Below, piece after piece: positions 1 to 2,650 of a DNA stretch of 64,000 nucleotides. The translations under genes were made by a program, and so were the position numbers. The stretch comes from Wenyingzhuangia gilva. GTDB taxonomy: Bacteria; Bacteroidota; Bacteroidia; Flavobacteriales; Flavobacteriaceae. The notes under the pieces were generated by a model. That model searched no databases and had not been told where the DNA came from. It saw only the letters and a program-made list of their open reading frames with translations. The stretch lies in the NCBI RefSeq assembly GCF_030519655.1, contig NZ_JAUMIT010000001.1, positions 1-64,000 of the forward strand, given 5' to 3'. Within the stretch, counting starts at the first letter, position 1. Every line of letters starts with the position of its first letter.

Positions 1-80
1 GTTATAGAGTGTTCTCCTTTAAGAATCAACCTTACACATTCTTGTTTAAAGTCTAATGTGTATTTTACTTTTCTAGACAT
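1..80 (-). CDS. IS3-family transposase OrfA, N-terminal fragment (runs off left edge)
   Basis: Reading the minus strand from the ATG at 78-80 gives 26 codons starting MSRKVKYTLDFKQECVRLIL, still open at base 1. This resembles the helix-turn-helix head of IS3-family OrfA proteins (HTH_Tnp_1), which bind the element's ends. Only the first residues are visible, so intactness cannot be judged. The adjacent sequence looks like the end of the element. The assignment is by family resemblance over a short stretch. Confidence 0.72.
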   Translation of the reverse strand, partial: MSRKVKYTLDFKQECVRLILKGEHSI

Positions 81-123
81 AAAAATACCCCCAAATTGTG
101 TCTAACTTTTTGGGGGCACTCTA
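1..123 (-). mobile_element. End of an IS3-type insertion sequence
   Basis: Outside the transposase start lies a candidate terminal inverted repeat at about 98-123; on the minus strand it reads TAGAGTGCCCCCAAAAAGTT followed by AGACA. A C-rich box (88-92) and a G-rich box (112-116) can pair as CCCCCAAA/TTTGGGGG, giving a hairpin between the end and the gene. The other end and any target duplication lie outside the window, so the exact boundary is inferred. Confidence 0.6.
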
Positions 124-1607: not shown

Positions 1608-1627
1608 AAACAAAATATGGTAATTAG

Positions 1628-1635
1628 TATCTTTG
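1628..1635 (+). promoter_or_regulatory. -7 box TATCTTTG upstream of the small-protein cassette
   Basis: A perfect TAnnTTTG match 18 bases before the first ATG of the three-gene cassette. With the terminator just upstream it suggests an independent transcript. Confidence 0.55.
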
Positions 1636-1653
1636 TACAAATAAATAATATAC

Positions 1654-1941
1654 ATGACTGTACAAGAATTTAGAGAACAATATATTTTAGGTTTTGGTTA
1701 CGAAAAAGGGACTAAAAGTAAAAGATTCCGCCTAGTTGTTTTAGACCGCAACAGCATGCAGGTAATGAATGAAGTTTTAGAAAACGAAAACAACACTTGC
1801 TTTAAACAGTTTTTAGCAGGGAAAGACATCAACAAAGCTATTTTAAAGTTTAAGATTGATGCCTTGGAAGAAGTATTGCAAGTTCATAATGTAACAGGCA
1901 TTAATTTATCAGAAAACGAAATCAATAAATATTTTGAGTAA
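1654..1941 (+). CDS. Small protein of unknown function, cassette member 1
   Basis: A 95-residue soluble protein with no signal peptide or membrane segment; I do not recognise the family. It begins MTVQEF and contains a central VLDR segment and a C-terminal NEINKYFE. The next two genes show a similar layout: an M-x-[IV]-x-E-[FY] start, a central Asp-Arg about 30 residues in, and an acidic or aromatic tail. I infer distant paralogy. It overlaps the TTG start of the next gene by eight bases, so the two are probably co-translated. A TATCTTTG box lies just upstream. Confidence 0.7.
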   Translation: MTVQEFREQYILGFGYEKGTKSKRFRLVVLDRNSMQVMNEVLENENNTCFKQFLAGKDINKAILKFKIDALEEVLQVHNVTGINLSENEINKYFE

Positions 1942-2299
1942 GCACGAACATCACCACCACGAACATGATCATGACCATAATCATGATGACCACCACCACC
2001 ATCATCACCATGATGAAGGGATTATGACCATTGAAGAATATCATAAAGCCAATATGATGTTGTTTAATATCAAAGATCTTAGAACTACAGATACTGTACT
2101 TTGTACTTTAACTTCAATTGATAGAATGAGTTTTTTGCCAAATGGAATTGAACATCATGAGTGTAAAAGATCAGAATTAACAGAACATTTTACCGAAGTC
2201 GTAAAAAGAAACCTTATTTTGGCTTTCTTTGAAAAAATAGAAATTGAAGCGTTTGATGTATTAGATATAAATACAGACATCGACTTTTTATTTGAATAA
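1934..2299 (+). CDS. Small protein with histidine-rich head, cassette member 2
   Basis: A 121-residue protein if read from the TTG at 1934; 16 of the first 29 residues are His, mixed with Asp and Glu, which looks like a metal (Zn, Ni or Cu) binding tail. An in-frame ATG at 2024 starts MTIEEY, matching the first residues of both neighbours, so it is the alternative start and would yield about 91 residues without the His tract. The longer form is preferred because the His/Asp codon pattern is strongly non-random and the TTG overlaps the upstream stop. The C-terminus FDVLD...DFLFE matches member 3. Function unknown. Confidence 0.68.
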   Translation: MSKHEHHHHEHDHDHNHDDHHHHHHHDEGIMTIEEYHKANMMLFNIKDLRTTDTVLCTLTSIDRMSFLPNGIEHHECKRSELTEHFTEVVKRNLILAFFEKIEIEAFDVLDINTDIDFLFE

Positions 2300-2317
2300 C
2301 CTAAAACAACCATCACC

Positions 2318-2650
2318 ATGGATATTAAAGAATTTAACAAGAAATTTATTTTAAACTTTAATGTAAACGAATCTCATCCAGAGAACATTGAATTTACATT
2401 AGAGACCATTGATAGAACTACTTTACAACCAACTTTAGATTTTAAAAAACTTAAGAATGAAACCCCAGTAGAGTGGTTATCTGATAAAATTGGAGAAGAA
2501 GCTTTGGCTGGAAGAAATCCTGCTAAATTCCAAAGTAGTTTTTATGAAAATGTAAAACGTAAGTTAATTAACACATTAATTATTAAAAACAACATAAAAG
2601 GTTTTGATGCCTTAGATACGCATGCTTCTGTTGATTTTTTGTTTAGATAA
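2318..2650 (+). CDS. Small protein of unknown function, cassette member 3
   Basis: A 110-residue cytoplasmic-looking protein. It shares with member 2 a late stretch of VKR.LI, an FDxLD motif and a DFLF ending, and with both neighbours the MDIKEF-like start and a TIDR segment. Family not recognised. It follows member 2 by 18 bases in the same direction and probably completes a three-gene transcript; the esterase gene 44 bases further on could also belong. Confidence 0.7.
   Translation: MDIKEFNKKFILNFNVNESHPENIEFTLETIDRTTLQPTLDFKKLKNETPVEWLSDKIGEEALAGRNPAKFQSSFYENVKRKLINTLIIKNNIKGFDALDTHASVDFLFR

Follow-up and report, generated by a model that had tools for sequence, protein, structure and literature searches.

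A Lineage-Restricted Cassette of Three Diverged Small-Protein Genes in Wenyingzhuangia, with a Histidine-Rich Leader on g2

Genes and Layout of the Cassette

The window, that is, the whole stretch of 64,000 nucleotides of Wenyingzhuangia gilva DNA that was analysed, carries three consecutive small genes on the plus strand: g1 (positions 1654–1941, 95 residues), g2 (1934–2299), and g3 (2318–2650, 110 residues). The g2 open reading frame can be read from a TTG codon, giving 121 residues, or from an inner ATG, giving 91, and we refer to the first 30 codons as the leader (1934–2023, plus strand) and to the remainder as the core (2024–2299, plus strand). The stop codon of g1 and the TTG start of g2 overlap by 8 bases (1934–1941, plus strand, TTGAGTAA), and a gap of 18 bases (2300–2317) separates g2 from g3. 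The initial annotation had given the same coordinates, lengths, overlap, and gap, all of which proved exact.

The start M-x-[IV]-x-E-[FY], to which the initial annotation drew attention, is common to g1, g2, and g3, and the motifs VKR.LI, FD.LD, and DFLF are present in both g2 and g3. Three other features hold in a narrower form. In the central Asp-Arg, described as shared, the Arg is invariant, whereas the Asp varies in the orthologues of g1 and g3; of the acidic and aromatic tails, the aromatic character stands, but not all of the C-termini are acidic (g3 ends in FLFR). The single TATCTTTG box ahead of the cassette (1628–1635, plus strand), a putative Bacteroidota-type −7 promoter element, is present as described, but is kept in the three closest species only.

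The median pairwise dN/dS was 0.126 for g1, 0.07 for the g2 core, and 0.091 for g3, and because these values lie between 0.07 and 0.13, the three are genuine genes under strong purifying selection.

The same TTG opens g2 in all 12 orthologues, and it lies within the end of g1 wherever g1 is directly upstream (TTTTGAGTAA, or TTTTGAATAA in the MAG L011). The length of the leader ranges from 9 to 30 residues among the 12 orthologues and changes in whole codons, with the frame kept. In G209, which belongs to a third genus, ATA replaces the inner ATG, and the leader must therefore be translated. Judged from these sequences, the 121-residue reading from TTG is better supported than the 91-residue one.

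Distribution and Genomic Neighbourhood

The initial annotation had named conserved gene order across Flavobacteriia as a check. All seven Wenyingzhuangia genomes examined, including that of the window, carry g1-g2-g3 in this order, so that a conserved neighbourhood is confirmed within the genus, but conservation of that breadth was not found, since only 3 of the approximately 237 sampled Flavobacteriaceae genera (235–237 covered) carry the genes. In the wider order and phylum samples, only the window genome was recovered and nothing past the three genera. Further matches of this wider search, at E values from 1e-4 to 1, were short, and many of them ran through stop codons or fell within long, unrelated reading frames; they were rejected. 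It should be noted that the genome samples were drawn from larger groups and that further genera may carry the genes.

Orthologues of g1, with 66–98% identity, occur in the seven Wenyingzhuangia genomes and in four from a second genus. These four (G008, G265, G278, and G280) have g1-g2 without g3 at an unrelated locus, after an M20 peptidase gene; in three of them, the pair is followed by a gene for a fatty acid hydroxylase. No match was obtained in two smaller genomes from this genus. G209 has g2-g3 without g1. The g3 gene is confined to Wenyingzhuangia and G209, and g2, with orthologues in all three genera, is the sole member found in every cassette.

As the initial annotation suggested, the proteins may plausibly be subunits of one complex. 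A complex of all three cannot be obligate in every carrier, because g1 is missing from G209 and g3 from the second genus. Two genera have retained the 8-base g1-g2 overlap at unrelated loci, and the g2-g3 pair is maintained without g1; this points to a set centred on g2 and not to a trio that must stay complete. These subsets would also be expected if the products were separate small proteins, linked only by tandem duplication and a common promoter and forming no physical complex: simple tandem copying fits the layout, and both g1-g2 and g2-g3 survive alone. Such a reading is a fair possibility but, in our view, less likely than not, given that the overlapping junction has been retained at two unrelated loci and that in L010 and L012, where a nuclease gene splits g1 from g2, the genes nevertheless stay in one tight run.

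In Wenyingzhuangia, the cassette is framed by YebC on one side and MenE on the other, with varying contents between them. A gene for a DNA/RNA non-specific endonuclease (PF01223) stands before g1 in L009, L013, and L077; in L010 and L012, it separates g1 from g2. Altogether, it lies directly upstream of the cassette or interrupts it in G209 and five genomes of Wenyingzhuangia, an arrangement that could point to g1, g2, and g3 as immunity or inhibitor proteins for this enzyme. An inhibitor would be kept only together with its nuclease, but the endonuclease is absent from the window genome (the same query finds it in the relatives) and from G005 (85% complete), G278, and G280, where the cassette is intact. 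Conversely, many genomes of the family hold the endonuclease without the cassette, and in the genus labelled "genus g3" the endonuclease, where present, is on another contig. The enzyme also starts with a lipoprotein-type signal, so that its action would be outside the cytoplasm.

The history of the locus bears on the same question. A TGGTAA at 1618–1623 (plus strand) is the last codon and stop of a lost non-specific endonuclease gene; the window matches L077 from this point to the start of g1, but not upstream of 1618. The YebC gene of the window genome is found at the end of another contig (G000:C29; L092:1–1215), beside an IS3-type element whose other end lies at window positions 1–118. Thus, the slot is ancestral, but mobile DNA has rebuilt it, leaving the cassette in place. 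The fact that the endonuclease is gone and the cassette kept argues against nuclease immunity, which we consider improbable.

Several details of the surrounding DNA can be added. The IS3-type element appears to occupy the terminator loop of YebC, breaking the assembly between C29 and the window contig, and the sequences aacctctgcttta and taaagcagaggttttt that flank it look like the arms of this terminator. At 206–1540, the window holds a lipoprotein-like gene with collagen-type G-x-x repeats, a probable SGNH-type domain, and a 54-base tandem repeat (441–580), in the slot that related species fill with the endonuclease gene. Between g3 and MenE lies a sialate O-acetylesterase-like gene (PF03629, 2695–4101); in the relatives, its place is taken by a SnoaL-like gene (L009, L077) or by one resembling a TonB receptor (L010, L012, L013), and the cassette is thus variable on either side. 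In L010 (4840–5647) and L012 (4826–5627), the endonuclease gene sits exactly at the g1-g2 junction, and L010 retains a second g2 start sequence (TTGAGTAAA), a copy standing before the endonuclease ATG.

Paralogy, Predicted Fold, and Library Searches

The initial annotation regarded the three proteins as diverged paralogues, and the comparisons of g2 with g3 and of g1 with g3 are above chance. The g2 and g3 proteins align over their full length by hhalign (E = 3.4e-8, probability 95%), with a shuffle z of 10.2, and are almost certainly homologous along that length. For g1 and g3, hhalign gave E = 5.4e-4 with a probability of only 30% over 38 N-terminal columns; the pairwise shuffle z was 5.5 (p ~ 2e-4), and none of 5000 shuffles reached the score. 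Very probably, then, g1 is a paralogue too, its likeness to g3 being confined to the N-terminal half. A direct comparison of g1 with g2 shows a weak likeness (hhalign E = 0.1; global z 3.4, p = 0.004; local p = 0.32), and their kinship therefore rests on g3 as a link and on the fold.

The g2 cores of Wenyingzhuangia and the second genus are 68–75% identical, whereas g2 and g3 are identical at about a third of their positions. On the basis of these identity levels, which are not a tree, the duplication is probably older than the split of the genera, and the absent members have been lost since.

AlphaFold2 models were built from alignments of window and related-locus sequences. The g1 model (6 sequences) reached a pLDDT of 87.5 and a pTM of 0.75, and the model of the g2 core (12 sequences of g2 and g3) reached 91.9 and 0.82. 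Both are predicted to have the same order of elements: a helix at residues 3–9, three strands (10 to 16 or 18; 24/25 to 31/33; 37/39 to 42/48), a long helix (59–77 or 54–72), and a short C-terminal helix. The shared fold that the initial annotation had named as a test was thus obtained for g1 and g2, the likeness being judged by the order of elements and by overlapping lists of fold matches rather than by superposition. The g3 protein, which has about 20 extra residues ahead of its last long helix, would have the fold of g2, as follows from their homology.

Foldseek searches of PDB with the g1 and g2 models and of BFVD with the g2 model gave nothing that reached E 0.001. In BFVD, an uncharacterised Aquamicrobium phage protein resembles the g2 model (TM 0.58/0.57, E = 0.04), which we treat as a lead and not as membership. 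The three-strand meander and helix of both models align with part of the domains of RNase H-like fold (endonuclease V, actin-like kinases, and the RT connection domain), corresponding to half of that fold, but this is a fragment match only (query TM of at most 0.56, targets of 200–500 residues), and no catalytic residues were found. Pieces of SecB, uL18, and TolB, with Z of only 4–5.5, were set aside as a common arrangement.

Over the whole chain, the g2 model finds its best-balanced match in T7 Gp1.2 (PDB 7u65 and 7u66), a protein made up of one small domain of some 85 residues, with 69 residues aligned (TM 0.54 and 0.58). Its Z of 5.5–5.8 is tied with those of unrelated chains, values below 8 being the chance range of the tool. 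One could suppose from this likeness that the cassette encodes a domesticated phage-type inhibitor of a host enzyme, as Gp1.2 is of dGTPase. We hold such an origin to be highly improbable: identity is 7–10% without a sequence link, phage records and viral contigs yielded no sequence relative, and Gp1.2, unlike g2, is of phage origin and has neither a His leader nor paralogous partners.

The view of the initial annotation that the proteins belong to no known family was upheld in every library tried. Searches of Pfam, NCBIfam, PHROG, PADLOC, and PDB sequences with the three proteins, and for most libraries with their orthologues, gave no significant family. The known anti-phage defence models of PADLOC went unmatched even with E values of up to 1 allowed, the PHROG matches were at chance level (best E = 0.0029, 1 of 15 sequences), and phages, plasmids, and IMG/VR viral contigs held no relative of g1, g2, or g3. 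DUF6012, CDC37_C, and UvrA were matched by single sequences at chance level and were discarded. Literature searches on Wenyingzhuangia genomes and on Gp1.2 yielded nothing of relevance to these genes.

The RimP model NF000929 was matched by 6 of the 15 g2 and g3 sequences, with a best E of 0.0011. Together with the position of YebC ahead of the cassette in Wenyingzhuangia, this might indicate a translation- or RNA-linked factor. The score, however, is 19.1 bits against a cut-off of 147, which led us to reject RimP membership, and the match joins 40 residues of g3 (7–46) to the C-terminal end of the profile only (positions 114–152 of 153). YebC, moreover, neighbours the cassette in neither of the two other genera. 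A role of this kind appears quite improbable.

The family is found in none of the libraries searched, and narrow families of small proteins are of a familiar kind; lineage-restricted ones are common and mostly unexplained. The case of the cassette is genuine and lends itself easily to testing, without being startling.

The g2 Leader and a Proposed Mechanism

In the window, the g2 leader, a feature that the initial annotation had passed over, contains 16 His and 8 acidic residues among its 30, a composition that makes it a probable metal-binding tail. Leaders with 4–16 His and many Asp and Glu occur in 11 of the 12 orthologues, so a conserved His-rich tail, as known from His-rich metal chaperones and buffers, is present in all but one of them. 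The exception is L011, whose leader is MNNNTSDDI (9 residues, 0 His), and because it lacks His, the leader is not essential everywhere.

Flexible His-rich tails are carried by the small soluble bacterial metal-handling proteins UreE, HypB, SlyD, and CooJ. The g2 protein resembles them in joining such a tail to a small soluble protein, and differs in that its tail is N-terminal, variable in length, and free of His in one relative. There was no sequence match to known metal chaperone families, and the fold search gave no clear match to them. The likeness of the leader to His-rich stretches of Co/Ni efflux proteins is weak (E = 0.02 and 0.23) and one of composition only.

In the alignment of the 12 orthologues, Cys27 and His44-His45-Glu46-Cys47 of the core are invariant. 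According to the strand register of the model, Cys27 may face His45 and Cys47. Because g3 has Phe26 and Leu45 at the positions of Cys27 and Cys47, a structural role, for example as buried core residues, is equally possible. Genes for haem-binding (PF14376), TonB-receptor, and imelysin (PF09375) proteins are found near the cassette of the second genus, but these metal-related genes do not adjoin that of Wenyingzhuangia.

Taken together, we favour, with a probability of about one in three, a lineage-restricted operon encoding a g2-centred complex with a metal-binding leader. Its genes, restricted to Wenyingzhuangia and two other sampled genera of Flavobacteriaceae, encode diverged versions of a single small fold that is probably cytoplasmic and is predicted to run helix, three-stranded sheet, helix. 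Translation of g2 starts at the TTG inside the end of g1, so that g1 and g2 are probably made in step by termination-reinitiation, and g3 would come next on the same message. The g2 protein would form hetero-oligomers with g1, g3, or both, its flexible leader binding a transition metal (Zn, Ni, or Cu), perhaps with Cys27 and the His-His-Glu-Cys of the sheet, and the metal-loaded complex would buffer, carry, or sense the metal. That all of this amounts to an undescribed family, in which three diverged copies with a His-tailed core form a metal-loaded hetero-oligomer for metal handling or sensing in a few Flavobacteriaceae genera, is a bolder proposal and rather unlikely.

The cassette is unusually tractable, with three short, soluble-looking proteins and a confident predicted fold. 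Its g1-g2 and g2-g3 subsets are natural, built-in deletion experiments, and metal binding by the g2 leader is a concrete hypothesis that is open to a simple assay.

In L010 (4490–4560) and L012 (4480–4546), the YebC terminator hairpin ends just ahead of the start of g1, and since it contains TAnnTTTG, it may double as the g1 promoter.
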